A DNA stretch of 21,746 nucleotides, from IMG/VR virus record IMGVR_UViG_3300032093_000964, positions 1 through 21,746 of that record; one strand, written 5' to 3'. Below the pieces are notes generated by a model. It ran no database searches and had not been told where the DNA came from. It worked only from the letters and a program-made list of their open reading frames with translations. The position numbers and the translations under genes are program-made. Shown here piece by piece: positions 3,423 through 16,758 of this stretch. This DNA comes from a virus. Each line of letters starts with the position of its first letter. Within the stretch, counting starts at the first letter, position 1.

Positions 3423-6400
3423 ATGCCATTAACACAACTAACAGGCGGATTAATTGAACCAGGATCAATTCAACAGTCCGATTTAAGTACAGAAGTAGCA
3501 GCAAACATATCTTCTGCTTTTGCTGCGGCTAACTCCGCAGCATCTTACGCCAATCAGGCATTTTCTGCGGCGAATACAGCATCATCGGGTAGCATAGATA
3601 GTTACGCTAGAGATACAGCGAATAGTGCCGCTTTTTATGCTAATAGTGCATTTAACGAAGCGAATTCGGCCTTCAATAAAGCCAATACTTCTGTTATAGC
3701 AGGTAGTTATGCAAACTCAGCATACAGTCAGGCCAACAATGCAACTACAAATGCTGGAGTGGCAGACACTAAAGCTGTAAATGCGGGATCATATGCTAAC
3801 TCTGCGTATAGTCAAGCTAATACCGCCACAACAAATGCATCTACAGCTGATGGTAAAGCAGTAACAGCTGGTAACTATGCGAATACAGCATACAGTCAAG
3901 CAAACACCGCAACTATTAATGCTGCAACAGCCGATAGTAAAGCAGTAAGTGCTGGAGAATATGCTAATACTGCCTTTGGTCAAGCCAATACGGCCGTAAC
4001 CAATGCTGCTACAGCTGATGATAAAGCTGTAAGTACTGCATCATATTCTAATTCAGCATTTGGTGCCGCTAATAGTGGTTCATCTTATGCCAATTCAGCA
4101 TATACTCAAGCTAATACAGCAACAACAAATTCAACTACAGCTGATCAAAAGGCCACAAGTGCTGGAGAATACGCTAACTCAGCCTATGGTCAATCTAATA
4201 CCGCAATCACTAATGCATCTACCGCTGATGGTAAGGCTGTAACAGCTGGCATTTATGCCAACGCTGCCTTCAGTGAGGCCAACACTGTTGATTCTAAAGC
4301 AGTAACAGCTGGTAACTATGCCAACTCGGCATTTGGTGTTGCGAACACTGCAACTACAAATGCTGCGACTGCCGACAGCAAAGCAGTATCATCCGGAGTT
4401 TATGCTAACAGTGCTTATGGTGCTGCTAACACAGTAGATTCTAAAATTATTGATGTTGGTGGTTATGCTAACTCAGCATACACTCAAGCAAATACCGCAG
4501 ATAGTAAAGCAGTAACATCTGGTAACTATGCTAACTCAGCATATACTCAAGCAAATACATCTGACAGTAAAGCGGTAAGTGCTGGTAGTTATGCTAACTC
4601 AGCTTACACACAAGCAAATACAGCAACTACAAATGCAGCAACTGCCGACAGTAAAGCTGTAAGTGCAGGATCATATGCTAATTCGTCCTTTAGTGTGGCT
4701 AATACAGCAACTACAAATGCTGCTACAGCTGATGGTAAAGCTGTTGATGCAGGACAATATGCTAACTCTGCTTATACTCAAGCAAACACTGCAACTACAA
4801 ATGCTGCTACAGCTGATGGTAAAGCAGTAACAGCTGGCAGTTATGCTAATGCAGCGTTTGGTATTGCCAACACAGCAGATGTCAATTCTATTTCTGCTGG
4901 TAACTATGCTAATGCTGCTTTTGCTGTGGCCAATAGTGGTATTACCGATTCTTGGGCTAGAGATACTGCAAACGCTGCATCTAGTTATGCCAATTCAGGA
5001 TTTTATACTGCTAATAGTTCTGGTCTTTATGCTAATGCAGCATTTGCGGCCGCAAATACAGGAGTGCCAGATACTTTAGCTAGAGATACTGCTAATGCGG
5101 CATCAAGTTATGCCAATTCTTCTTTTAATACAGCGAATACTGCTGACAGTAAAGCAGTGAGTGCTGGTAGTTATGCTAACTCAGCTTTTGGTGCAGCAAA
5201 CACAACAGCAATTTACGCAAACGCTGCATTTGCTGATGCCAACACCAAATTTAGTTCATCGGGCGGCACAATCTCTGGTAACGTTACTATCCTCTATGAT
5301 CTTAGTGTCTTAGGAAATGTTAGTTTTACAGGAAATGTTACTTCTGTAACTGTCACTGGTAATAGTGGTCAATTTTTTGGTGAAGCGAACGGGCATAACG
5401 CATTATATGCTGGTATTCCTGTTGGATATGACTATCAGCCACATACAGTATTTCAAGCATCAACAAATGAGGATAATTACTCTCAAATAAACATTCAAAA
5501 CATTAATCCTGGAAATAACGCATCATCTGATTATGTTGCTACGGCCGATAACGGTACTGAAAATGATACTTATATTGACATGGGTATTGCTAGTAGTCTG
5601 CATGCCGATCCTGAATTTACGTTAGTTGGTCCAAATGATGGTTACTTGTATGTGTCTGGCAATACAGTCACGGGCGGTGGTGGCCTTGTAATTGGTACAC
5701 TTTTAGAAAATGATGTCATATTTACTGCTGGTGGCATGAATGAAGAAAATGAACAAATGCGTATCATTGGTTCAAGCAATACGATTAACATTCGTTCTAA
5801 TGTAGATTCAAGTATCGCAAAGAGTGTTTTATTGGGACCAATTGCAAACCTTCATATTACAGGTGGTTCAAATGATGATTATATTAGAACCGATGGTTCA
5901 GGTAATCTGACATTTGCAAATTTAACTTCCGCAAATGTAATTAAAGTTTTATATGATACAGCTAACACTACTAGTCAAACAGCTGTAAGTTCTAGTTCAT
6001 ATGCAAATGGCGCTTTTGCTGCAGCTAATACAGCAGACCAAAAAGCTGTAACGGCTGGAACATACGCCAATGCGGCATTTGCAGCCGCTAATACAGGCGC
6101 CAGTAGTTCAGACCAATATGCTAGAGACACTGCTAATGCTGCATCTAGTTATGCCAATTCATCTTATAGTCAAGCAAACACAGCCACAACTAATGCTGCT
6201 ACAGCTGATGGTAAAGCTGTAACAGCTGGATCATATGCTAATGCTGCCTTTGCTTTAGCTAATACCTCAGATAGTAAAGCAGTAACAGCAGGTAACTATG
6301 CTAATTCAGCTTATGGTCAAGCTAATACAGCAACTACCAATGCTACTACTGCTGACTCTAAAGCTTTAACGGCAGGTGATTACGCTAACTCATCCTATAC

Positions 6401-7658
6401 TCAAGCTAATACTGCTACAACAAATGCATCTACAGCTGATGGTAAAGCTGTAACAGCTGGTAACTATGCTAATAGTGCTTATGGTCAAGCTAATACTGCT
6501 ACGACTAATGCTGCAACTGCTGATGGTAAAGCTGTAACAGCAGGATCTTATGCTAATGGAGCTTATACTCAAGCTAATACCGCAACTACTAATGCTGCTA
6601 CAGCTGATGGTAAAGCAGTAACAGCTGGTAACTATGCTAATAGTGCTTTTGCTGCTGCGAATACTGCTACAACAAATGCATCTACAGCTGATTCTAAAGC
6701 TGTTGATGCTGGTAACTATGCTAACTCTGCATTTAGTGTTGCTAATACGTCAGACAGTAAAGCAGTAACATCTGGATCATATGCTAATTCAGCTTACACG
6801 CAAGCAAATACAGCAACTACCGATGCTGCTACTGCTGACAGTAAAGCAGTAACAGCTGGTAACTATGCTAATTCAGCTTATACTCAAGCTAATACAGCAA
6901 CTACCAATGCTACTACTGCTGATCAAAAGGCCACAAGTGCTGGATCATATGCTAATTCAGCTTATGGTCAAGCTAATACTGCTACAACAAATGCATCTAC
7001 CGCTGATGGTAAGGCTGTAACAGCTGGTAACTATGCTAACTCGGCATTTGGTTCAGCTAATACTGCCGACAGTAAAGCAGTAACATCTGGATCATATGCT
7101 AATTCGGCATTTGGTGTAGCAAATACCGCAGATAGTAAAGCTGTAACAGCTGGATCATATGCTAATTCATCATTCACTACCGCTAACACTGTAACATCAG
7201 CGAGTTTGTATGCTAATGGTGCTTTTGCTTCTGCAAACACTCGACTAGCTACAGCTGGTGGTACAATTTCTGGTGATTTAACAGTAACAGGATTCACCAC
7301 TTTACAAGAAGTAACAGAAGTTTTAAGTACATTAACTGGTGCTACAGGAACAGTAACTCATAACTTAACTGATGGTTCTGTTTTTTATCACACAAGTGCT
7401 GCAGCAAACTTTACTGCGAATTTTACAAATGTACCAACCACAACAAGTCGATCTATTACAGTTACGATTGTTATAGTACAAGGTGCAACAGGATATATAC
7501 CAAATGCCGTACAAATAGATGGCGCAGCACAAACAATTAATTGGGCTGGCGGTGCAGCACCCACACCAACAGCAAACAAAACTGAATTTTATTCATTTAA
7601 TTTATTAAGAATAGGATCTGCATGGTCTGTATTTGGTTCTGAGATTACATTTGGTTAA
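3423..7658 (+). CDS. Giant repetitive tail fibre protein
   Basis: A 1411-residue protein. After a short head (LTGGLIEPGSIQQSDLSTEV) two long repeat blocks follow, about residues 90-605 and 850-1255. They are built of YANSAYTQANTATTNAATAD-type units, 28 residues when full and 21 when short. Between them (about 610-848) lies a non-repetitive domain with SGQFFGEANGHNALYAGIP, DYVATADNGTENDTYIDMG, NDGYLYVSGNTVTGGGG and MRIIGSSNTI, a conserved module of marine T4-like fibres. The C-terminal domain (about 1278-1411) has VFYHTSAAANFTANFTNVP, VQIDGAAQTINWAGG and FGSEITFG. The protein is rich in Ala, Asn, Thr and Ser with no visible Cys, typical of a trimeric extracellular fibre. It is flanked by the Gly-rich adhesin and the collar-like proteins, so it belongs to the receptor-binding apparatus. 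A long-tail-fibre or side-fibre role is inferred. Confidence 0.9.
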   Translation: MPLTQLTGGLIEPGSIQQSDLSTEVAANISSAFAAANSAASYANQAFSAANTASSGSIDSYARDTANSAAFYANSAFNEANSAFNKANTSVIAGSYANSAYSQANNATTNAGVADTKAVNAGSYANSAYSQANTATTNASTADGKAVTAGNYANTAYSQANTATINAATADSKAVSAGEYANTAFGQANTAVTNAATADDKAVSTASYSNSAFGAANSGSSYANSAYTQANTATTNSTTADQKATSAGEYANSAYGQSNTAITNASTADGKAVTAGIYANAAFSEANTVDSKAVTAGNYANSAFGVANTATTNAATADSKAVSSGVYANSAYGAANTVDSKIIDVGGYANSAYTQANTADSKAVTSGNYANSAYTQANTSDSKAVSAGSYANSAYTQANTATTNAATADSKAVSAGSYANSSFSVANTATTNAATADGKAVDAGQYANSAYTQANTATTNAATADGKAVTAGSYANAAFGIANTADVNSISAGNYANAAFAVANSGITDSWARDTANAASSYANSGFYTANSSGLYANAAFAAANTGVPDTLARDTANAASSYANSSFNTANTADSKAVSAGSYANSAFGAANTTAIYANAAFADANTKFSSSGGTISGNVTILYDLSVLGNVSFTGNVTSVTVTGNSGQFFGEANGHNALYAGIPVGYDYQPHTVFQASTNEDNYSQINIQNINPGNNASSDYVATADNGTENDTYIDMGIASSLHADPEFTLVGPNDGYLYVSGNTVTGGGGLVIGTLLENDVIFTAGGMNEENEQMRIIGSSNTINIRSNVDSSIAKSVLLGPIANLHITGGSNDDYIRTDGSGNLTFANLTSANVIKVLYDTANTTSQTAVSSSSYANGAFAAANTADQKAVTAGTYANAAFAAANTGASSSDQYARDTANAASSYANSSYSQANTATTNAATADGKAVTAGSYANAAFALANTSDSKAVTAGNYANSAYGQANTATTNATTADSKALTAGDYANSSYTQANTATTNASTADGKAVTAGNYANSAYGQANTATTNAATADGKAVTAGSYANGAYTQANTATTNAATADGKAVTAGNYANSAFAAANTATTNASTADSKAVDAGNYANSAFSVANTSDSKAVTSGSYANSAYTQANTATTDAATADSKAVTAGNYANSAYTQANTATTNATTADQKATSAGSYANSAYGQANTATTNASTADGKAVTAGNYANSAFGSANTADSKAVTSGSYANSAFGVANTADSKAVTAGSYANSSFTTANTVTSASLYANGAFASANTRLATAGGTISGDLTVTGFTTLQEVTEVLSTLTGATGTVTHNLTDGSVFYHTSAAANFTANFTNVPTTTSRSITVTIVIVQGATGYIPNAVQIDGAAQTINWAGGAAPTPTANKTEFYSFNLLRIGSAWSVFGSEITFG
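3690..5240 (+). repeat. Repeat block 1 within the tail fibre gene (84/63-base units)
   Basis: Tandem imperfect repeats encode YANSAF/YANSAY followed by xxANTATTNAATADSKAVTAG-type segments. Full units are 28 codons (84 bases) and short units without ATTNAATA are 21 codons (63 bases). All are in frame. Synonymous third-base variation is frequent, so protein-level selection is likely. Confidence 0.85.
5940..7220 (+). repeat. Repeat block 2 within the tail fibre gene
   Basis: The same 84/63-base in-frame repeat family continues after the central globular domain. Some stretches are identical to block 1: the run encoding ADQKATSAG at about 6919-6945 matches 4141-4167, and the run encoding NASTADGKAVTAG at about 6990-7026 matches 4214-4249. 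The order of these two segments is the same in both blocks. Confidence 0.85.
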
Positions 7659-7660
7659 AT

Positions 7661-8221
7661 ATGCCTAGATTATCTTCGATAAACACATTCGTTTTAAATT
7701 CTGTAATTGGTTCGGTAGCAACTGATCCAGAGCAAGCTAATTATCAAGGTGCCACTATGGTCTTTGTTTTACAAGGATCCGCACCAACAGGATGGGTTAA
7801 AGACACTTCAGATACCGATTATACTTTACGATGTGTTACAGGATCAGTATCAAGTGGAGGATCATCAGGATTTTCTTCCGTTATGTCATCTAAATCTTTA
7901 ACAGGTAGTCTATCGGTAACTGGAACTGTAGGAGGAACATCACTTACATCTAGTATGATACCCTCCCACAACCACGGACCTTATCCTGCTGCAGCAACTG
8001 TTGCTGCCAGCACAACTTCTCCTGTAATACCAGGACCATCAATAGCCAGAACAGTATCTAACAATTTTACACCTGGTGTGGTAAATCCAGGTGGTGTTAA
8101 TCCTGGAGTTACAGCAACTGCTCATGATCATCCGTTAAATCCAGCAACAAGTCCTGTAACCTTCACCACAGTAAATTTAGCTATTAAATATGTGGATTCA
8201 ATTTTAGCAACAAGGACTTAA
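7661..8221 (+). CDS. Tail-collar-like fibre protein, paralogue 1
   Basis: A 186-residue protein with the SAPTGWVKDTSDTDYTLR phrase (40-57), which is the core of phage tail-collar-type domains (PAGWxxxxxxxxALRVVxG). Two HxH motifs follow, HNH (H103, H105) and HDH (H155, H157), and the end is beta-stranded (LAIKYVDSILATR). HxH pairs coordinate iron in the T4 gp37 tip, so a metal-stabilised needle or tip is plausible. It starts two bases after the stop of the large fibre gene and has no clear Shine-Dalgarno, so it probably depends on coupling. It is the first of three tandem homologues. Confidence 0.8.
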   Translation: MPRLSSINTFVLNSVIGSVATDPEQANYQGATMVFVLQGSAPTGWVKDTSDTDYTLRCVTGSVSSGGSSGFSSVMSSKSLTGSLSVTGTVGGTSLTSSMIPSHNHGPYPAAATVAASTTSPVIPGPSIARTVSNNFTPGVVNPGGVNPGVTATAHDHPLNPATSPVTFTTVNLAIKYVDSILATRT

Positions 8222-8222
8222 T

Positions 8223-8720
8223 ATGGCATTAGTTATAGAATCAGGATCAAGAACAATAATGAAAATGACCACTCCACCAACGGGATGGACAAAAGATACT
8301 ACATATGATAATTATGCACTAAGAGTAACTACCGGTTCTGTTATTAATAGAACTACAGGAGAGTCTTTTTCTACAGTTTTTAAAAATTATAATAGCATTG
8401 GTGTACCGGCACCTGGACTTTCTTATTCTGCTGTAAACGCCACTGTGATAGACGATGCGGCAATGACAACGCATAATCACACTACCATAACACACCCATC
8501 CGCATTGTTAACTAGACGAGGTGGTGCAGGTAATACGAACGTAGCTCGTACCCCAGCGGGAGCACCAGTTACTTTTAGTAATAACCCTGGTGGTGGAGGA
8601 TCACATACTCATCCAATTGGAACTGTAGCCGTTACTGGTTCAATTAATCAGAGTGGAGTTAATTCAGAAATAAATTTGAATATAAAATATGTTGACACTA
8701 TTATAGCGGTTAGGAGTTAA
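8223..8720 (+). CDS. Tail-collar-like fibre protein, paralogue 2
   Basis: A 165-residue homologue of its neighbours. TTPPTGWTKDTTYDNYALR (16-34) matches the collar-type core, HNH (H84, H86) and HTH (H128, H130) are the paired HxH motifs, and LNIKYVDTIIAVRS is the shared C-terminus. AAGGA in the last codons of the previous gene provides its ribosome-binding site. Compared with paralogue 1 the N-terminus is shorter by about 20 residues. It probably forms part of the fibre tip or a short fibre, possibly as a heterotrimer with the other two. Confidence 0.8.
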   Translation: MALVIESGSRTIMKMTTPPTGWTKDTTYDNYALRVTTGSVINRTTGESFSTVFKNYNSIGVPAPGLSYSAVNATVIDDAAMTTHNHTTITHPSALLTRRGGAGNTNVARTPAGAPVTFSNNPGGGGSHTHPIGTVAVTGSINQSGVNSEINLNIKYVDTIIAVRS

Positions 8721-8722
8721 TC

Positions 8723-9226
8723 GTGGCTATTTTTGATTCTGGAACAACAACAATTTTTCATCAAACATCCGCACCCACTGGTTGGACGAAAGAAACTGTG
8801 AATTATAATAATCACGCACTTCGAGTAGTAAATGGATCGTCTTTGAGTTCTGGAGGTACTGTCGATTTCACAACAGGTTTTAATACTACATCATATATTT
8901 TTTCATCGGTTGCTGTTCCTTATACAGTAGGTAACCATACCTTAACTGGAGCTCAGTTACCATATCACCTTCATGCTGTTGCGCCATCAACAAATAGATT
9001 TGCTATTGGAACTGCTACCACACCCACAAATGCTACATCTCCAATAACTCCTGCTGTACCCGTTATGACTACTGCCGTACCGGCCGGTGGGCCGATAGGC
9101 GCATCAGTAGGTAGTTCAGGAGCGCACAATCACTCAATTACAATTACCGCTAGTGGTAATGTTTTTGGTCCAAATTCTACAATAGGTGTAAATTATATTG
9201 ATGTTATTATTGCTTCTTTAAACTAA
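8723..9226 (+). CDS. Tail-collar-like fibre protein, paralogue 3
   Basis: A 167-residue protein starting with GTG at 8723, with AGGAG about 7 bases upstream inside the end of paralogue 2. TSAPTGWTKETVNYNNHALR (15-34) is the collar-type core, followed by SSGGTVDFTTGF as in paralogue 1. HLH (H82, H84) and HNH (H135, H137) are the paired HxH motifs. The end is GVNYIDVIIASLN. The identity between the three copies is partial, so the triplication is old. This is the last gene of the fibre cassette before a new promoter-like element. Confidence 0.8.
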   Translation: MAIFDSGTTTIFHQTSAPTGWTKETVNYNNHALRVVNGSSLSSGGTVDFTTGFNTTSYIFSSVAVPYTVGNHTLTGAQLPYHLHAVAPSTNRFAIGTATTPTNATSPITPAVPVMTTAVPAGGPIGASVGSSGAHNHSITITASGNVFGPNSTIGVNYIDVIIASLN

Positions 9227-9271: not shown

Positions 9272-9631
9272 ATGATTCAAACACATAAATTAGTAGTAAT
9301 TCCTGTTGATGGTATTGTCGTTACAGACCAAGAAGGTTTATCAGAGTTAGACTTATCTCAATGTGGAATACCAGATAATATACATGCATTACAATGGAAT
9401 AATCCCATTTGGCCAGATAAACAAAATTCCCATCTAAATGGATTGCAATATGGCCAAGGATCTGGTTGGTTAGAATTTAGATCGACCGATCCTAATGAAA
9501 ATATAACTGAATTACCACAATGGGCTATCAACTGTTATGATGTATGGTTGCAAGCATATAATATAAAACAAGCTGCACTAGCGGCATCAGATGCTGCTGA
9601 TGAAGCCGCAGCTGCAGCAGAAAACAATTAA
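9272..9631 (+). CDS. Conserved-type small phage protein, possibly tail-fibre-related
   Basis: A 119-residue protein with AAAGG about 9 bases before the ATG. It begins with beta-strands (HKLVVIPVDGIVVTDQEG) and contains IHALQWNNPIW (37-47) and LNGLQYGQGSGWLEFRS (55-71), then ends in an Ala-rich helix (AALAASDAADEAAAAAENN). The W/Q/N-rich core and Ala-rich tail recall small proteins found beside fibre genes in marine T4-like phages, some of which assist fibre assembly. No motif decides the function. It follows the fibre genes directly. Confidence 0.7.
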   Translation: MIQTHKLVVIPVDGIVVTDQEGLSELDLSQCGIPDNIHALQWNNPIWPDKQNSHLNGLQYGQGSGWLEFRSTDPNENITELPQWAINCYDVWLQAYNIKQAALAASDAADEAAAAAENN

Positions 9632-9650
9632 ATTAAAAAGTGATTATATT

Positions 9651-10811
9651 ATGAATAAATCATTAACTGAAAATAATTATATCTATATTCCCAACTTCAT
9701 TAGTGAAGCCGCTGCAAAAGTCATGGCTTCCAACTTCAAAAGTCACTGTAAACAAAATGAGGTTCAAGGAGACAATCAAGCTCCAAATTCTTCAGCGGAA
9801 TATAATTTCATAGACTTTTTAGAAATGCTATGTGATAAAGTACCAACGGTGAGCACAATTATAGGTGAAACCGTTTTACCAACATATAGTTATGCTAGAG
9901 TGTATAAAGATGGTAGTGTTTTGGAAAGACATAGGGATAGAGATGCTTGCGAAATAAGTTTAACTGTACATTTAGATGGTGATGAAGATTGGCCAATTTA
10001 TATTGAAACTCCTGATGGTAATGAAGTTGAATTGATTCTAAAACCAGGTGATGCAATGCTTTATTTGGGATGTGTTGCTGATCATTGGAGAAATCAATTT
10101 TTAGGTAAAGAATATGTTCAGGTATTTTTACATTATGTAAGAAGTAGAGGTGATAAAGCTTATACTTATTTTGATAAGAAAAAAGATTCTCCAATCAAAA
10201 AAGAAGAAAGTGTGAAACAAGAAAAAACAACACCAGTTAAAATAAACTCCAAAAATAAAATATCAGATTTCATTCAAATTTATGAAGATATTATTCCCTA
10301 CTCACTATGTGATGAAATTATAAATGAGTATAAGAATGATGATAATTGGTGTCTTGCTGGAGTAGGATACGAGGAAATGAATTTAAATGCTAGAAATGTA
10401 AATACAATTCCTATTTCACACGAAAATACAATTTTAAAAAATCCCGAAATAAGAAAACTTTTAGATGATAGACTTTATAAAGTTGCAAATGAGGTCATTA
10501 GAAAATATAATGATATTTTCCCACTAAGTCAAATAGAAGAAGATTCTGGATATGATTTATTAAAGTATGAGGTAGGGCAATTTTACCGGCAACATACAGA
10601 TTCATACAAAAAACATCCTAGAGCAGTGTCTTGTTCTTTCGCACTAAATGATGATTTTGGAGGTGGAGAATTTGCTTTCTTTGATAGAGAGTTGATTTAT
10701 AATTTAAAGAAAGGATCAGTAATCATGTTCCCTTCAAATTTTATGTATCCACACGAAATCATGCCTGTAATCAAAGGCACTAGATATTCTATTATTACTT
10801 GGTTTGTTTAA
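9651..10811 (+). CDS. Fused double 2OG-Fe(II) oxygenase
   Basis: A 386-residue protein starting at ATG 9651 (MNKSLTENNY); an ATG at 9591 lies inside the previous gene and is less likely. It carries two complete 2-oxoglutarate/Fe(II) dioxygenase cores. Domain 1 has H94-x-D96 (ERHRDRDAC), distal His145 (DHWRNQF) and Arg164. Domain 2 has H315-x-D317 (RQHTDSY), GGGEFAFFD, distal His368 (YPHEIMP) and Arg378 (KGTRYSI), a prolyl-hydroxylase-like pattern. A Lys-rich linker (about 184-205) joins them. Such enzymes hydroxylate proteins, nucleic acids or small molecules; the substrate is unknown. In T4-like marine phages they often lie near tail genes, so modification of fibre or host proteins is one possibility. 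The two domains differ in sequence, so this is a fusion of distinct copies. Confidence 0.88.
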   Translation: MNKSLTENNYIYIPNFISEAAAKVMASNFKSHCKQNEVQGDNQAPNSSAEYNFIDFLEMLCDKVPTVSTIIGETVLPTYSYARVYKDGSVLERHRDRDACEISLTVHLDGDEDWPIYIETPDGNEVELILKPGDAMLYLGCVADHWRNQFLGKEYVQVFLHYVRSRGDKAYTYFDKKKDSPIKKEESVKQEKTTPVKINSKNKISDFIQIYEDIIPYSLCDEIINEYKNDDNWCLAGVGYEEMNLNARNVNTIPISHENTILKNPEIRKLLDDRLYKVANEVIRKYNDIFPLSQIEEDSGYDLLKYEVGQFYRQHTDSYKKHPRAVSCSFALNDDFGGGEFAFFDRELIYNLKKGSVIMFPSNFMYPHEIMPVIKGTRYSIITWFV

Positions 10812-11127: not shown

Positions 11128-11520
11128 ATGTTTTTTTGTAATCTTACAAGAAACCCATTGATTGTAGTAAGATTCATTCAATAGTGCGTGGCGAGAGAAT
11201 ATCTCCCACGTTTCGTAATAAGACAATTCTGATTTAGTTTTACAGAGGTGAAGTATCTCTCTTACGTATTGATCTTCACCATTTTTTTTAACTTCTTCTT
11301 GTAGTAATAAATTAGAACCCCAGTATGTCATCCAATCAGACGATACTCGGGTTTTCTTTTTCTTACCTTTAACTTGTGTAGTCTTAGATTTGGTGAAGAA
11401 TTTTTTACCAATATATTTACGACCACTTTGAGTATGTGTGATTAGATATACAAACCCAAAATGGCCGTCTATATTTTCTTCGGTAAATTCTTCACCTGTA
11501 TTATGAAAATACCAGGTCAT
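11116..11520 (-). CDS. GIY-YIG-like endonuclease-family protein
   Basis: A 134-residue protein with GFVYLI (22-27) and KYIGKK (35-40), together the two-strand GIY-YIG signature in variant form. A basic loop (VKGKKKKTRVSSDW), YWGSN, REILHLCK (88-95) with Arg88, and YYETWEIF (101-108) with Glu103 follow; the Arg and Glu fit the catalytic positions. Related small phage proteins are widespread, and their role (free-standing nuclease, recombination or anti-competitor) is not settled. Its ATG overlaps the TGA of the upstream zinc-ribbon gene by ATGA coupling. Confidence 0.8.
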   Translation of the reverse strand: MTWYFHNTGEEFTEENIDGHFGFVYLITHTQSGRKYIGKKFFTKSKTTQVKGKKKKTRVSSDWMTYWGSNLLLQEEVKKNGEDQYVREILHLCKTKSELSYYETWEIFSRHALLNESYYNQWVSCKITKKHLLK

Positions 11521-11666
11521 TCGTCATCATCACCAAAATCCTCAGTTTCAATTAAATATTCACCGCAAAATGGACAGTAGTGTGGATCATCTTCACATTT
11601 ACTTTCATCATATTTAATTGTAAACTCTGAGGAACATGCCCCACAAGTGTGTTTCAACGAAGCCAT
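11517..11666 (-). CDS. 49-residue zinc-ribbon protein
   Basis: This frame lies in the gap upstream of the GIY-YIG gene. ATG (11666-11664) overlaps the nuclease stop (TAATG), and TGA (11519-11517) overlaps the next ATG, so both borders show translational coupling. The protein has two knuckles, HTCGAC (Cys8, Cys11) and YCPFC (Cys31, Cys34), spaced like a zinc ribbon, and an acidic tail (EDFGDDDE). Such ribbons in phages usually bind nucleic acid or mediate protein contacts. It may be a partner of the GIY-YIG protein. Confidence 0.8.
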   Translation of the reverse strand: MASLKHTCGACSSEFTIKYDESKCEDDPHYCPFCGEYLIETEDFGDDDE

Positions 11667-12115
11667 TATTGACACCAAGATTGTTTGGCTTCACCAAAAT
11701 ATTCCCGAGCGAAACCGTTTTGAATCAACATACTACGGAGACTTTGACCATCTAGAATCATATCACCCAAGACACGACCACCAAATTTATCCCAACCATA
11801 GAGTGTGACTTGTCGTTTAATGGACTTTGCAACTAGATTTTTAGTAAACACAGTTGCTGCTTGACCACGTTGATCTTCACTTGGACATTGAGCTCTATGG
11901 CCTTTTTCTGGCGTATCTACACCATAGATACGAACTGCTAATTCAGGTTTTAATGGCAAAGGTAAAAAGGGTGCTGCAATCACTACAGTATCACCATCAT
12001 TTACCCGTACAATTTGTGCATCATACGTTACACCTTTTGCTGTTTTGTCAGCATAAACATTTCCTATACCAGCGAAAGATAATAGACCAATTAAAAGTAT
12101 TTTTGTTAATTTCAT
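11666..12115 (-). CDS. Exported staphylococcal-nuclease-type (SNase) nuclease
   Basis: A 149-residue protein. Residues 1-22 form a signal peptide (hydrophobic LLIGLLSFAGIG, then VYA before Asp23). The mature part is an SNase OB-fold with NDGDT (39-43; Asp40 and Asp42 for calcium), RIYGVDTPE (62-70; Arg62 and Glu70 matching catalytic Arg35 and Glu43 of staphylococcal nuclease) and FGGRVLGDMILDG (111-123; Arg114 matching Arg87). All catalytic positions are present, so it should be active on DNA or RNA in the periplasm or outside the cell. AAGGAG precedes the ATG and the IscA-like gene ends 9 bases upstream. Roles could include nucleotide scavenging, degrading competitor DNA during entry, or lysis-time clean-up. 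Confidence 0.9.
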   Translation of the reverse strand: MKLTKILLIGLLSFAGIGNVYADKTAKGVTYDAQIVRVNDGDTVVIAAPFLPLPLKPELAVRIYGVDTPEKGHRAQCPSEDQRGQAATVFTKNLVAKSIKRQVTLYGWDKFGGRVLGDMILDGQSLRSMLIQNGFAREYFGEAKQSWCQ

Positions 12116-12124
12116 TCTTTCTCC

Positions 12125-12445
12125 TTAAATATTAAAACTTTCACCACAACCACATCGATTCTTTTCTAAAGAATTTATAAAATCAAAACCTTCATTGAGT
12201 CCATTTCTTTTCCAATCTATTTCCATTCCGTTCAGATAAGGAATATGTTTTGGGTCAACAAAAATTTTAACACCGTTAGATTCGTATATAGTATCTGTAT
12301 CCGATACACTATCAACATATTCTAAGGTATAGGCCAAACCACTGCAACCTGTGGTTCTAACACCAACCTTAATACCTAATCCTTTTCCTCTTTTGTTTAA
12401 AGAGTTTAAAGTTTTGCGAGATGCGAGTTCAGTCATTGTGATCAT
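12125..12445 (-). CDS. A-type Fe-S cluster carrier (IscA/SufA/ErpA-like)
   Basis: A 106-residue protein, the usual family size. The three ligand cysteines are present: Cys34 in TTGCSGLAYTLEYV and Cys98/Cys100 in RCGCGESF. This is the HesB/IscA pattern that delivers Fe-S clusters to apoproteins in the cytoplasm. GAAGGAG lies 6 bases before the first ATG; a second ATG three codons in is possible. It heads the leftward set with the SNase, zinc-ribbon and GIY-YIG genes. Host enzymes needing clusters may be the beneficiaries; no phage-encoded client is identified in the window. Assignment to a specific subfamily is not possible by eye. Confidence 0.9.
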   Translation of the reverse strand: MITMTELASRKTLNSLNKRGKGLGIKVGVRTTGCSGLAYTLEYVDSVSDTDTIYESNGVKIFVDPKHIPYLNGMEIDWKRNGLNEGFDFINSLEKNRCGCGESFNI

Positions 12446-12464
12446 AGATTTCTCCTTCGATCTT

Positions 12465-12471
12465 TATTTAG
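12465..12471 (-). promoter_or_regulatory. CTAAATA late-promoter-like motif
   Basis: Minus-strand CTAAATA sits about 20 bases upstream of the IscA-like ATG, between it and the porin terminator. The same heptamer occurs at 1899-1905 before the tail cassette. T4-like late promoters have TATAAATA or shortened versions at this distance. No -35-like hexamer is evident. Confidence 0.4.
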
Positions 12472-12502
12472 ACGAAAAAAAAGCCTCTTACGAGGCTTTT
12501 AA
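12472..12502 (-). terminator. Rho-independent terminator after the porin gene
   Basis: On the minus strand: AAAAGCCTC (12500-12492), loop GTAA, GAGGCTTTT (12487-12479), continuing into a run of eight Ts. The 9-bp stem with a GC core is a classical intrinsic terminator. It closes the pstS-porin transcript 16 bases after the porin stop and isolates it from the IscA-like gene. Confidence 0.9.
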
Positions 12503-12517
12503 TATAACAAAAAAATT

Positions 12518-13924
12518 TTAGAAACTTAATTGACTTCTAAACATAATTGCTTTTTCACCATTTACACGACTACCAGAACTACCAACTAATGCATCAAACT
12601 TTGTATCTACGTAGTTGAGCATGAAACGTAGATTGTCAGTGCAAAACCAAGTTAGACCGTATGTCATAGCAGTAGCACGATTTGACTTGCCTGTTGCAAC
12701 GGATACATCACTTGCATCAAACTCACTCATACGTACACCAACCTGCCACGCACCACGACCACCTTTGTCGATTGGATTATTTGGTTTAATCCAACCAAAC
12801 GCACCATCTTTGTATGCATGTGATTCGCCAGTTAAATTATAAACTGCTTGTACATAGTACCCTTTGATTTCTTGGTCACTACCTGTTGCAGCATCATATT
12901 TAAAATTGAACTGTTCGCCTTGAACTTTGAAACCGTTATATGCAAACGCTGCTTCTAATCCTTGGCGTGTTCTTGTAGTAGCACCACTCAATGCGGAACC
13001 TGTAAACCAACCAGACTGCATACGAGATTCTGTTCTACCACTGGCTGGTGCAACGCCACTTTTAATTTCACCTGTGCTGTATGCTGCACCCAAGTGTGCA
13101 GTGTATGCTTTGCTGCCTGTTAGTTCAGCAATATTAGTTGTTACACGACCAATATAATCAAGTCCATCGAACTCTGCGCTCTTATTGGATTTGCCTCTAC
13201 TTGCTGCTATAGCATATGTAAGGCCAGGTTTTGGCACACCATGTAACATGAAACCAGTTTCTTTTGCAGGAATAAATTCAGTATCATTCTGACCAATCAA
13301 ACTACGTTCCATAAAATCTAGATTGTTTGAACTTGTCATTTGTTCAAGACTAAATGGCATCTTGAATAAGCCAAATTGAAATTGCATTTCTGGATTTGCT
13401 GCATAGTTTACCCACATCTCATCTGCTGTTGATGATGTAGAACTAAAGCCATCACTTGCACCAAAGTTTGCTAACAATTGATATTTGAAGTCTTTTGCAA
13501 ATTGTCCACGAACACCAAATCTTGCACGGCGAACTTCGGCTAAGTTTTGATACGAATCCGTGGTTTGGCCGACACCATAATCTGGTGTGTATTGGCGATA
13601 GTCCATATGAATTCGACCTGTAAACTGTGCCGTATTGTTTCCATCTTTGCTTTTGAGTCCGATTCCATTTTCTGTGACTGAACCATCGTTTGCTCTTGCT
13701 TGTCTGTATTTGACCGAATCACTAACATCTTTGTCGATTCTTTGTTCTGCAAACTTTTTGTTTTCTTCTTTTTCTTCATATGCATTGAGTTTTGATTCAT
13801 ATTCTTTTTGAGTGATTATATTCTTCTCTCTTAGAATATTCAATGTATCTTTATACTCATCAGCATATGCAGGAATTACTGCTGCAAGTGCAACTACGAT
13901 AGATAATTTTTTAAATAGTTTCAT
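12518..13924 (-). CDS. Phosphate-selective porin O/P-like outer-membrane protein
   Basis: A 468-residue protein. A signal peptide (MKLFKKLSIVVALAAVIPAYA, cleaved near residue 21) is followed by a coiled-coil-like segment (DTLNILREKNIITQKEYESK), as in OprO/OprP-type porins. The beta-barrel then begins (NTAQFTGRIHMDYRQY; LAEVRRARFGVRGQFAKDFK; MQFQFGLFKMPFSLEQMTS). The protein ends in MFRSQLSF, whose terminal Phe is the outer-membrane insertion signal. The family forms trimeric anion pores that favour phosphate or pyrophosphate. The start is set by AAGGA overlapping the pstS stop, 9 bases away, so it is translated from the pstS message. Phage-encoded barrels of this type are unusual. Anion specificity is inferred from family and neighbour; a more general porin is possible. 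Confidence 0.88.
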   Translation of the reverse strand: MKLFKKLSIVVALAAVIPAYADEYKDTLNILREKNIITQKEYESKLNAYEEKEENKKFAEQRIDKDVSDSVKYRQARANDGSVTENGIGLKSKDGNNTAQFTGRIHMDYRQYTPDYGVGQTTDSYQNLAEVRRARFGVRGQFAKDFKYQLLANFGASDGFSSTSSTADEMWVNYAANPEMQFQFGLFKMPFSLEQMTSSNNLDFMERSLIGQNDTEFIPAKETGFMLHGVPKPGLTYAIAASRGKSNKSAEFDGLDYIGRVTTNIAELTGSKAYTAHLGAAYSTGEIKSGVAPASGRTESRMQSGWFTGSALSGATTRTRQGLEAAFAYNGFKVQGEQFNFKYDAATGSDQEIKGYYVQAVYNLTGESHAYKDGAFGWIKPNNPIDKGGRGAWQVGVRMSEFDASDVSVATGKSNRATAMTYGLTWFCTDNLRFMLNYVDTKFDALVGSSGSRVNGEKAIMFRSQLSF

Positions 13925-13933
13925 AATTTATCC

Positions 13934-14956
13934 TTATTTCCAAATTGGGTTGTTGTCAGGACCTTTTAAGTCTTTTTTCCAATTGTCCTGATTTAATTTA
14001 ATAACTGATTGTGGTAAATGAACATATTCTAGTTCTTCACTCATCTTGGCACCATTCTTCCAACTCCAATCAAAGAATTTCAAAACTGCACGACCTGTCA
14101 AACTATCTGCTTGTTGTTTGTGCATGAGAATGAAACTTGCGCCTGTTGCTGGCCATGCTTCTTTACCTGTTTGCCATGTGAGCAACAAATACATTCCTGG
14201 TGCATTAGCCCAATCTGCGTTTGCTGCTGCGGCTTTGAATGAATCGTCACTTGGTTGTACAAAAACACCATCACGATTTTTTAATTGTGCGTGTGCAATT
14301 TTATTTCTTTTTGCATATGCATATTCTACATAGCCAAATGCACCTTTGATTCTTTGTACTTGAACAGCAACACCTTCATTACCTTTACCACCTACACCAA
14401 CTGGCCATTTTACTGCTGTGCCTTCGCCAACAGTTTTTGCAAAATCAGCGTTTGCTTTACCTAAAAAGTTTGTCCAAATAAATGTAGTGCCTGAACCATC
14501 TGCACGATGAACAACTGTGATTGCTAATGCTGGTAGATTGACGCCAGGATTCAAATCAACAATTGCTTTATCGTTCCACTTTGTGATTTTACCAAGATGA
14601 ATGTTTGCAATAACTTCTGGTGTTAATTTTAATTGACCTGCTGCTACACCGTCAAGATTGAATACTGGTACTACACCGCCAATTACTGCTGGAAATTGCA
14701 CTAGACCTTCTTTGTCTAATTCTTCAGGCTTCAATGGCATATCACTTGCACCAAAGTCAACTGTTTTTGCTTTGATTTGTTTGATACCACCACCAGAACC
14801 GATTGATTGATAATTCAGACCAATGCCAGTGGATGCTTTATATGCTTCTGCCCACTTAGCATAGATTGGAAATGGAAAAGTCGCACCAGCGCCAGTTAAT
14901 TCTGCTGCGGATGCGACTCCTGTAAATAACAATAAAGATAAAAGTAACTTTCTCAT
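13934..14956 (-). CDS. pstS: Periplasmic phosphate-binding protein PstS
   Basis: A 340-residue protein starting at ATG 14956 with AGGAG six bases upstream; an upstream ATG at 14995 lies in the leader and has no such site. Residues 1-17 (MRKLLLSLLLFTGVASA) are the signal peptide. The phosphate-binding segments of the PstS family are intact: GAGATFPFPIY (22-32), SIGSGGGIKQI (51-61), DFGASDMPL (67-75) and RADGSGTTFIW (151-161). Length matches host PstS. It captures phosphate for the host PstCAB transporter in the periplasm. It is followed 9 bases later by the porin gene and preceded by a Pho-box-like repeat and a hairpin covering the start. PstS is a known auxiliary gene of cyanophages and other marine phages. 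Nothing suggests decay. Confidence 0.96.
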   Translation of the reverse strand: MRKLLLSLLLFTGVASAAELTGAGATFPFPIYAKWAEAYKASTGIGLNYQSIGSGGGIKQIKAKTVDFGASDMPLKPEELDKEGLVQFPAVIGGVVPVFNLDGVAAGQLKLTPEVIANIHLGKITKWNDKAIVDLNPGVNLPALAITVVHRADGSGTTFIWTNFLGKANADFAKTVGEGTAVKWPVGVGGKGNEGVAVQVQRIKGAFGYVEYAYAKRNKIAHAQLKNRDGVFVQPSDDSFKAAAANADWANAPGMYLLLTWQTGKEAWPATGASFILMHKQQADSLTGRAVLKFFDWSWKNGAKMSEELEYVHLPQSVIKLNQDNWKKDLKGPDNNPIWK

Positions 14957-15015
14957 GATTTCTCCTATAAGAATTGTGCCTTTGCACAATATCACACTTA
15001 TCTATGAAATCATGA
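14953..15015 (-). promoter_or_regulatory. Long 5' UTR hairpin enclosing the pstS start codon
   Basis: The minus-strand RNA can fold as one extended stem: TCATGATTTC (15015-15006) pairs with GAAATCATGA (14962-14953), which contains the ATG. Next come a 4x4 internal loop, ATAAG with CTTAT (15001-14997 with 14971-14967), and an asymmetric loop. The apical part is ATTGTGC-AAAG-GCACAAT (14990-14973). All three helices are perfect (10, 5 and 7 bp). The start codon is in the basal helix and part of the AGGAG is in the internal loop, so the fold would repress initiation. Function is inferred. Confidence 0.6.
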
Positions 15016-15028
15016 TCCTTAAACGGGA

Positions 15029-15057
15029 TTGTAACAAAACCGTCATCGGATTGTCAT
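15029..15057 (-). promoter_or_regulatory. Pho-box-like triple repeat upstream of pstS
   Basis: Plus-strand reading gives TTGTAAC (15029-15035), AAAA, CCGTCAT (15040-15046), CGGA, TTGTCAT (15051-15057). These are three 7-mers at exact 11-base spacing, close to the PhoB consensus CTGTCAT-N4-CTGTCAT. It lies in the 108-base gap before pstS, 73 bases from the ATG. The repeats point away from pstS, which is not the usual orientation, so PhoB action is plausible but not certain. Confidence 0.55.
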
Positions 15058-15064
15058 AAATCAA

Positions 15065-15754
15065 TTAATACATATTTGGAGGATCTACTTTCCATTCATA
15101 TCCTTCGGGAACTGGATTCCAATTATTGGTATCTTTTTTCCATGCAAAACCAATACCCCAATCGTTAGAAGTTTCAATCACGTTTGCTTCAACAGCCCAT
15201 TCATCTTTATTTAAATTTCTCATGAATACTTTTGGACCAGGATGATATGCTGTATCATGAAGTCCAACAATTCCATTTTTTCCTAAAATGTTTGTGTATT
15301 CCCAATCTTTTAAACATTGATTAACGCTGTGCCACCCGTCGATGAAAATAAAGTCAAATTCTTTTCTAGTTGCTCCACATTTTTCAAAAATTTGATTTAT
15401 TATTTTCATATTTTCTTCATAGTTGGAACTATCACCTCTTATAACATGAATATTTTCTTCTTCATTGTTTAGATATTCTCTATCATCTATATCTATTCCA
15501 ATATAGATAGTTTCTTTTTTCTTATTTTTCAACAACACTTGTGTAAATGAATTTTCTCCATTTCTATTGACTCCGATTTCAAGTATAGCGGAACAATTTT
15601 CAGAAACTCTCAAAAATCTATCTCTTAAGACCATTCTATTCGCTTCAGTTACCTCAGCCCAACCCCTAAATTCTATTCTTGGATCTCCATCACTATCATC
15701 CCAAGGTGTAAGATATCTAATATCTTTTATTAAATCATTTTTCCATTTCATCAC
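15065..15754 (-). CDS. Class I SAM-dependent methyltransferase-like protein
   Basis: A 229-residue protein, with AAAAGGAG upstream of ATGATG (start at 15754 or 15751). ILEIGV (57-62) is motif I, IYIGIDIDD (83-91) supplies the acidic residue after strand 2, and IRGDSS (105-110), FDFIFIDGWHS (133-143) and GIVGLHDTAYHPGP (161-174) follow the order of the Methyltransf_24 / cephalosporin-hydroxylase-like group. The substrate is unknown; phage relatives may act on sugars or small metabolites. It is the last gene of the nucleotide operon, 11 bases after nrdB. The C-terminus (PVPEGYEWKVDPPNMY) is Pro/aromatic-rich. Confidence 0.8.
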   Translation of the reverse strand: MMKWKNDLIKDIRYLTPWDDSDGDPRIEFRGWAEVTEANRMVLRDRFLRVSENCSAILEIGVNRNGENSFTQVLLKNKKKETIYIGIDIDDREYLNNEEENIHVIRGDSSNYEENMKIINQIFEKCGATRKEFDFIFIDGWHSVNQCLKDWEYTNILGKNGIVGLHDTAYHPGPKVFMRNLNKDEWAVEANVIETSNDWGIGFAWKKDTNNWNPVPEGYEWKVDPPNMY

Positions 15755-15765
15755 TTTTTCTCCTT

Positions 15766-16758
15766 TTAAGCTGCTTTACCCCAAACTTCTTCCCATTGTC
15801 CCGACAAGGCACCTTTTGCGTAATCAGTAACACGATTTTCGAAAAAGTTTCCGTGAATAGGAGCATTAATCATTTCTTCAACCCATGGCAATGGATTTTT
15901 CTTTACCTTGAAAATCCCTTTAAGACCAAGAGAAATAAGCCTACGGTCAGCAATATAGCGAATATAGCGCTTAACATCTTCTGCATCTAGGTTCTCCATT
16001 GGACCCATCTCGAAAGCTAGGTCAATAAATTTATCTTCTAGTTCCACCATTTTTTCTGCAATAGTATATATTCTCGATTTTAAATCATCATTCCAAATTT
16101 CTTTGTTTTCTTCCACATATGTACGGAACAATTTAATCATATTCTCGGCGTGCATTGTTTCATCAACAATAGACCAAGTAACGATTTGTCCCATACCCTT
16201 CATCGTACCGTTGCGTGGGAAGTTAAGTAACATGATAAAGGAACTGAATAATTGCATCCCTTCGGTGAAAGCAGAGAATACTGCAATGTGAGTAGCAGTA
16301 GAAGCAGCATCGCCATTCTGTGAGCTAAGATTAAGTACGTAATCATGTTTATCTCTCATTGCCTGATATTCTAAAAATTGATTGTACATTGTATCAGGCA
16401 ATCCTAATGTTTCAATCAAGTGTGAGTATGCTGCAATGTGTAATGCTTCACGAGCTGCAAAACCAAGTAACATCATTCTTACTTCCGGTTGAGGAAAATA
16501 AGGAAGATAATTCTTTACATAACCACCTGCCACATCAATGTCGCCTTGTGTGAAGAATCTAAAAATGTGTGTGAGAAATTGTTTCTGTTCTGTTGTTAAT
16601 TTGTTTTTCCAATCTTTTACATCTTCGATCATTGGAACTTCTGAATGAAGCCAATGAGCTTGTTCATGTTGCAACCATGCATTATATGCCCAAGGATATG
16701 CGAATGGTTTAAATGCGGTTCTTTCGTCCGTTAGTTTTGTGTCGTGCTTTTTAATCAT
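15766..16758 (-). CDS. nrdB: Class Ia ribonucleotide reductase small (beta) subunit
   Basis: A 330-residue protein of typical phage NrdB size. The diiron ligands are all visible: Asp73 (TQGDIDV), Glu104 and His107 (REALHIAAY), Glu166 (SAFTEGMQ), Glu200 and His203 (VDETMHAEN). Tyr111, four residues after His107, corresponds to the radical Tyr122 of the E. coli protein, so this is a tyrosyl-radical enzyme. It makes the radical used by NrdA to reduce ribonucleotides to deoxyribonucleotides. The start overlaps the thioredoxin gene by 8 bases. The subunits are separated by five genes, unlike adjacent nrdAB in most bacteria. Confidence 0.97.
   Translation of the reverse strand: MIKKHDTKLTDERTAFKPFAYPWAYNAWLQHEQAHWLHSEVPMIEDVKDWKNKLTTEQKQFLTHIFRFFTQGDIDVAGGYVKNYLPYFPQPEVRMMLLGFAAREALHIAAYSHLIETLGLPDTMYNQFLEYQAMRDKHDYVLNLSSQNGDAASTATHIAVFSAFTEGMQLFSSFIMLLNFPRNGTMKGMGQIVTWSIVDETMHAENMIKLFRTYVEENKEIWNDDLKSRIYTIAEKMVELEDKFIDLAFEMGPMENLDAEDVKRYIRYIADRRLISLGLKGIFKVKKNPLPWVEEMINAPIHGNFFENRVTDYAKGALSGQWEEVWGKAA

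Follow-up and report, generated by a model that had tools for sequence, protein, structure and literature searches.

A phage-borne pstS–porin gene pair and its probable role in phosphate import

Can a phage bring into its host a path for phosphate across both membranes? The question is raised by a virus record of 21,746 bases (IMG/VR IMGVR_UViG_3300032093_000964; the whole stretch is called the window below), in which a gene for the phosphate-binding protein PstS is followed on the minus strand by a gene for a porin of the OprO/OprP type. A first-pass annotation, made from the sequence alone, had described the two genes as a self-contained phosphate-uptake cassette. The evidence given below makes it probable that they form an auxiliary-metabolic cassette of the phage, switched by PhoB, that imports phosphate across both membranes of a Gram-negative host and feeds the host PstCAB system. 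Phosphate import as the likely role was supported, as were Pho-box-like control and the presence in a phage genome of PstS and an OprO/P-family porin in one probable transcript.

The gene pair and its occurrence in phages

The pair and its borders are laid out as follows.

14956-13934, minus strand: pstS, 340 aa from the ATG at 14956, with a signal-peptide-like N-terminus; identified by NCBIfam and PDB matches
13924-12518, minus strand: Porin_O_P gene, 468 aa; identified by PF07396, an AlphaFold2 model and VIA comparison
13925-13936, minus strand: junction, where the porin ribosome-binding site (TAAGGA) overlaps the pstS stop (TAA)
12500-12479, minus strand: intrinsic-terminator-like stem and T run (AAAAGCCTCGTAAGAGGCTTTT) 3′ of the porin gene; found by sequence scan

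The gap between the pstS stop and the porin start is 9 bases (13925-13933); this gap and the overlapping ribosome-binding site agree with the first-pass annotation. An alternative pstS start in the list of open reading frames (GTG at 14995) would make the protein 13 residues longer. The stem, which had also been noted after the pair, is the sole minus-strand match within 11500-16500; sites of this kind on both strands number 3, against 2.7 in shuffled sequences, so that the place of the stem is informative and not its presence.

The linkage was followed in three scans of IMG/VR, each keeping the best 80 relatives (of 109 for the porin, 293 for PstS and 131 for a wider porin scan); the more distant 213 PstS contigs stand outside the count of porin linkage. 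In the first porin scan, pstS, complete or truncated where the contig stops, lies directly upstream in all 80 nearest loci. The porin follows in 78 of the 80 nearest PstS loci, and is missing in L114 and L149. Among the 80 loci of the wider scan, 78 of 79 readable contigs have pstS; its 17 new contigs comprise 15 with pstS, one without (L273) and one cut at the gene (L235). Together the scans cover 124 distinct contigs, among which near-copies are numerous (the first two sets comprise 53 distinct porins and 54 distinct PstS), with two broken copies (the porin of L135 and the pstS of L276) counted as present. An intergenic distance of 9 bases recurs in 108 of the 132 relative loci measured (near-copies included), and lengths are 340–343 aa for PstS (141 loci) and 467–473 aa for the porin (139 loci); the proteins were extracted as open frames, and lack internal stops by construction. 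Chance adjacency of the two genes was rejected, as the pair recurs in more than 100 contigs. By eye, in the exceptional locus L273 (4960-7389) a desaturase-like gene and a small gene separate the porin from an nrdB-like gene, and L114 has, from 4847, a small secreted-looking protein in the porin's place and then a nuclease-like gene.

Both genes are under purifying selection. Pairwise dN/dS, for pairs with dS of 0.1–1.5, has a median of 0.093 for pstS (1004 pairs of 54 distinct sequences) and 0.127 for the porin (698 pairs of 53). In the window and in all 20 long related contigs (82–365 kb) the porin scores over the family cut-off in a frame without stops (21/21).

The bacterial origin of both genes, as judged by similarity, would also fit a chance fragment of host DNA, or misassembled bacterial DNA, that has no function. 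This explanation is extremely improbable: primase, nrdA, nrdB and thyX are phage neighbours in the window, T4-type gp23 was found in 13 of the 20 long related contigs, which were the records searched for it, each protein tree has a single phage clade, dN/dS is low, the two genes are adjacent in none of the readable bacterial loci fetched, and recurrence across independent contigs contradicts it. Bacterial contamination was rejected on the neighbours, gp23 and the single phage clade per tree. The gp23 scores fall into two groups, with six contigs at 1e-143 to 1e-151 and the other seven near 1e-100, a sign that several phage lineages may be involved. The window primase is nearest to those of T4-like phages (~40%), and at the DNA level no deposited phage comes near the window as a whole.

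A tblastn search of 50,697 phage records with the porin gave no match at E 0.01, while PstS matches 90 of these records, every one below 60% identity. Four PstS matches (H1-H4), from two Campylobacter phage records and two 0.5 Mb Salmonella contigs, look bacterial (~52%); the Salmonella contigs in the phage collection are bacterial contigs and seem to be mis-filed. A search of plasmid records found 15 with a match, and the eight matches listed are at 27–29% identity. No description of the pstS–porin pair was found among the open-access papers listed, a search that covers neither subscription papers nor preprints. The supposition that the pair was undescribed in phages stood for deposited records and for these papers and failed for uncultivated IMG/VR contigs, where the pair is common.

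The two proteins

PstS of the window passes the equivalog cut-offs of NF008171 (418.2 bits against 339, 2.3e-125) and TIGR00975 (373.3 bits against 205, 8.1e-112), and PDB PstS is matched at 2.7e-115. The residues T26, F27, S54, D72, R151, S155, G156 and T157 are invariant across 18 phage PstS proteins; the phosphate contacts of PstS presumably comprise T-F near the start, SGSGG, D and R..SGT. Phosphate-contact residues are given in part by the available text of PMC10987575. No PstC/PstA-type permease (PF00528) was found in the window or the 20 long contigs (0 of 21 records, which may be fragments, against 14 of 14 controls). The inner-membrane step would thus need host PstCAB, on which the phages probably rely, and the cassette cannot be called self-contained.

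The porin exceeds the curated cut-off of PF07396 (171.8 bits against 20.9, 3.4e-50), and its sequence matches to OprO and OprP are at 1.9e-17 and 1e-16, respectively; PHROGs and NCBIfam gave no family for it. The protein has a signal-peptide-like start, and an AlphaFold2 model from 35 phage sequences (pLDDT 66.9, pTM 0.63) shows a helical N-terminal domain and a barrel of ~16 long strands. Foldseek ranked OprP first (6e-21) and OprO second (2e-19), followed by matches of 6e-12 and worse, and VIA gave a tie between OprO (Z 30.2) and OprP (Z 29.8), the next being 23.3. The modelled barrel is closest to OprO/OprP, the family that the first-pass annotation had named for checking by a barrel model. 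In L095 (6133-7536) the N-terminal domain is of another phage type and the barrel near-identical to that of the window, a mosaic at the level of domains.

The central site of OprP consists of R34, Y62, D94, K121, S124, S125, K126 and R133, according to the available text of PMC5877670. In a profile alignment five of the eight are identical in the phage porin (R34, D94, S124, S125 and R133), and all eight positions are invariant among 35 phage porins. The loop at 189–220, which holds five of them, is among the most conserved segments, with a mean variation of 0.31 bits against 0.49 for strands, 0.61 for loops and 0.78 for the N-terminal domain. For the outer arginine ladder and the periplasmic lysine cluster of OprP, at what we take to be their positions, a multiple alignment places Arg opposite R222 and R226; K74 and K323 are kept, K378 is Arg, and K15, K25 and K30 are not kept, while K313 is kept in the profile alignment and gapped in the multiple alignment. 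The Lys/Arg anion path anticipated earlier is only partly retained: five of the eight central residues are kept, and the outer arginine ladder is mostly absent in the profile alignment.

At two aligned places the constriction is more basic than that of OprP (Y62 to R135 and Y114 to K188). This feature, the tie between OprO and OprP as best structural match, and the presence of Ppx and PhoX beside the porin in bacterial relatives, with ppk in the region, would suit a pore that chiefly admits pyrophosphate or short polyphosphate, as OprO does, or some other anion, so that phosphate supply is helped only indirectly. Such a pore is unlikely, since its partner in nearly all contigs examined is PstS, which points to phosphate as the end product, and no polyphosphatase occurs among the window proteins scanned.

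Two predicted proteins in a viral structure library, A0A8S5S2G8 (Siphoviridae sp. ctBLh2) and A0A8S5QG53 (a fragment, ctr8v12), are phage-assigned and named phosphate-selective porin, so that the present group is not alone in having phage-borne members of this broad family. They match the model by Foldseek at 9.4e-17 and 1.5e-4, with 14% and 19% identity to this porin, and may have a pstS gene beside them. Phage-encoded porins among predicted viral structures would also fit a role in receptor masking or superinfection exclusion, with the position by pstS incidental; the porin of the lambdoid phage PA-2 reportedly acts in this way. A masking role is very unlikely here: the surface loops are not hypervariable (0.61 bits against 0.49 for strands), the linkage to pstS is tight, and a Pho-box-like row is present even in the locus without pstS, L273.

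The upstream region and the proposed mechanism

Three features lie upstream of pstS in the window.

15018-15057, plus strand: four tandem 7-mers resembling Pho half-sites (CTTAAAC, TTGTAAC, CCGTCAT, TTGTCAT) in 11-bp steps; pattern score against shuffles
15028-15057, minus strand: weak sigma-70-like promoter match (ATGACA-18-TACAAT, with TG before the -10) inside the box
14974-14989, minus strand: leader hairpin (TTGTGC-AAAG-GCACAA) between the box and the pstS ribosome-binding site; z -2.8

The repeat at 15018-15057 is the top-scoring place on both strands of the window (22/24; the next independent site listed scores 18), and none of 200 shuffles equals its score. Sigma-70-like matches occur at chance level, with 19 found in 5 kb against 17.8 expected. 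The Pho-box-like repeat reported by the first-pass annotation recurs among relatives: across 54 distinct 120-bp upstreams, TGTNAY-N5-YGTNAY is present in 39 when the gene strand is read and in 17 when the opposite strand is, against a shuffle mean of 0.1 (maximum 1) and 3 of 530 random windows of the same loci. YGTNA pairs at a spacing of 11 are found in 40 of the 54, against 0.8 expected; the upstream sequences are related, and the shuffle figures are not independent tests. At 70% identity they form 12 clusters, of which six have the strict pattern; the cluster of the window has instead a row of four units, which lies on the opposite strand. The strict matches served to build a half-site matrix, which was applied to 13 of the 15 upstreams without the pattern (L081 and L137 being unscored), and the two-unit score was reached by 0–2 of 200 shuffles in eight, 6–9 in three, 23 in L021 and 187 in L073. 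Similar rows precede the porin of L273, which has no pstS (four units, 21/24), and the pstS of L149, which has no porin. The leader hairpin, as the first-pass annotation had it, is present in the window and is not a general feature, with z below -2 in 11 of the 54 upstreams and a mean z of -0.65.

Promoter families differ in the orientation of the box, and that of the window is reversed, which would suit a regulator other than PhoB, with the cassette answering another signal. This is rather improbable, marginally more so than the polyphosphate pore, because the 11-bp steps and TGTNAY half-sites fit what we take to be the PhoB consensus, and because the pstS gene of a donor genome (see below) itself has CTGTCATAAACATGACAT upstream.

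Under the reading preferred here, import of phosphate by a PhoB-switched cassette, PhoB of a phosphate-starved host would bind the 11-bp tandem repeat and turn on a single transcript. The porin would be inserted in the outer membrane and admit phosphate-type anions to the periplasm, where the phage PstS would catch phosphate and pass it to host PstCAB. Phosphate supply for phage production could in this way be kept up after host transcripts decay. We infer all four of PhoB binding, expression in infection, the pore substrate and the benefit to the phage.

Several points weigh against this reading. The porin model is of fair confidence only, by its pLDDT. Three of the eight central OprP residues are changed in the profile alignment (Y62R, K121Q and K126N), in which the R218-R226 loop is also gapped and R242 is Ser. 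The pore residues that are kept also occur in nearly all of 26 aligned bacterial relatives; being a family-wide trait, they are no proof of phosphate specificity. ExtI, assigned by Pfam to the PF07396 family, probably does not transport phosphate, and the characterised porin that comes closest to it is FmdC, which serves amides and urea (both from the available text of PMC5877670). The Pho-box-like repeat of the window is oriented opposite to the genes, which speaks against simple activation, and 15 of the 54 upstreams, including the cluster of the window, are without the strict gene-strand pattern. The Pho patterns were fixed after the upstreams had been viewed, guided by the PhoB consensus, and Pho-box prediction in phage genomes is described as not reliable in the available text of PMC10976474. 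Finally, the best porin tree does not contain a clade of phages plus donor genomes, an arrangement that is not rejected by the approximately unbiased (AU) test (p 0.147).

Bacterial relatives, origin and neighbouring genes

The nearest bacterial porins, at 47–54% identity in one scan of genome contigs, are in seven metagenome-assembled genomes (MAGs) labelled Burkholderiaceae, Oxalobacteraceae, Burkholderiales, Polynucleobacter or Noviherbaspirillum, referred to here as the donor group. Further relatives are at 40% or less, many of them in Methylophilaceae. Within the family, the porin reaches at least the 1e-40 level in 16 of 294 genomes (drawn from a larger group, with the seven donor-group MAGs included), and the best seven are the same MAGs. 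PstS is found at 1e-100 in 231 of 399 genomes of the order; the two best (74–75%) belong to the donor set, and the next is at 69%. By these comparisons a single Burkholderiales group contains the closest bacterial relatives of pstS and of the porin gene alike.

The PstS tree has 22 phages in one clade (100/100), joined to five donor-group genomes (100/99) and apart from 28 other bacteria. The phages also form one clade in the porin tree (100/99). Of the two trees, by which the first-pass annotation had proposed to examine a common host origin of the genes, that of PstS joins the phages to the donor group and the best porin tree does not.

In these bacteria the porin adjoins Ppx and the alkaline phosphatase PhoX, with other flanking genes in L150 and L154. 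One donor genome (G002) has pstS ~10.7 kb from the porin, with ppk between them and phoU in the same region; in another (G004) a piece of pstS lies at the contig end, ~12.5 kb from the porin, and the pstS contig of a third (G006) carries genes that by eye resemble pstC, pstA, pstB, phoU, phoB and phoR. Adjacency of pstS and the porin was seen in none of 29 bacterial porin loci (L150 among them, with no more than 90 bases visible upstream of the gene) and none of 38 bacterial pstS loci, which represent 34 distinct places. That the phages inherited a pair already formed in bacteria was rejected on this ground, although an unsampled donor could have one; the joining of the two genes probably took place in phages, or else in a host that the sample does not contain.

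The flanks of the cassette differ among phages. The nearest query gene upstream of pstS in 49 representatives is nrdB in 19, one of three other window genes in six and none of the ten queries in 24, and the nearest after the porin is the nuclease in 15 of 50. Relative to the pair of the window, L033 has a PstS of 97% and a porin of 87% identity; such unequal likeness within one locus indicates that pieces recombine.

A wider interpretation, to which we would give even chances, is that of a mobile viral mini-Pho-regulon. T4-like phages of presumed freshwater-type Burkholderiales would have joined two genes that lie apart in the host phosphate island into one new PhoB-switched transcript, opening the outer membrane and loading the host importer, and the unit would have passed among phage lineages that differ in neighbouring genes and show two groups of gp23 scores. 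If true, it would be the first known phage unit in which a nutrient pore for the outer membrane is joined to a periplasmic binding protein of its own. To our knowledge, known phage phosphate genes act in the periplasm, inner membrane or cytoplasm. The phage phosphate genes given in the available text of PMC10987575 are of this kind.

The closest known counterpart is the pstS of cyanophages (with phoA in some), a phage-borne PstS tied to phosphate starvation and controlled by host PhoBR, according to the available text of PMC10976474. Cyanophage PstS is ~33–45% identical to the present PstS, the upper values covering part of the protein, and the deposited records have no match to this porin, whereas here an outer-membrane pore is a near-constant partner. 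Soil phages are likewise described as carrying phosphorus-acquisition genes, including pst clusters; the available text of PMC10987575 gives 17 kinds of gene and has no occurrence of 'porin'. The word is also absent from the available text of PMC12195039 and PMC9004378, and that of PMC12285232 has KdgM-type porins only.

OprP and OprO of Pseudomonas share with the phage porin PF07396, the barrel fold and the positions R34, R59, R60, D94, S124, S125 and R133. They differ in identity (~24%), in the helical N-terminal domain of ~60 aa of the phage porin, and in that its outer arginine-ladder loop is mostly absent and K121 and K126 are replaced. The Burkholderiales porin beside Ppx and PhoX has the same key residues as the phage porin but, unlike it, is not adjacent to pstS in the bacteria examined. 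New here are the outer-membrane pore as a near-constant partner, another group of phages and of donors, and a repeat in the promoter region that accompanies the cassette repeatedly. If the pore is so constant a partner, the permeability of the outer membrane would be able to limit phage production where water is low in phosphate, and selection would act on every step of import. The cassette also allows a clean test of whether phages outside cyanobacteria sense phosphate through host PhoB, and is a possible virome marker of phosphate stress.

The neighbours scanned in the window include primase, thyX, nrdA, nrdB, thioredoxin, and IscA-like and thermonuclease-like proteins. The last of these (SNase; 11666-12115, minus strand) has a signal-peptide-like start and lies near the cassette, and its gene is present in 24 of 54 representative loci; a secreted nuclease by phosphate-uptake genes might release phosphate from DNA or stop incoming DNA. 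On the plus strand, 3423-7658 encodes a 1411-aa protein of Ala/Asn/Ser-rich repeats, perhaps a long fibre, and 7661-9226 three tandem look-alike proteins of 165–186 aa, perhaps duplicated tail-tip or collar domains. The product of 9591-10811 (plus strand) has top PHROGs matches named 'ferrochelatase', a doubtful name, as the protein also matches a 2OG-Fe(II) oxygenase family.

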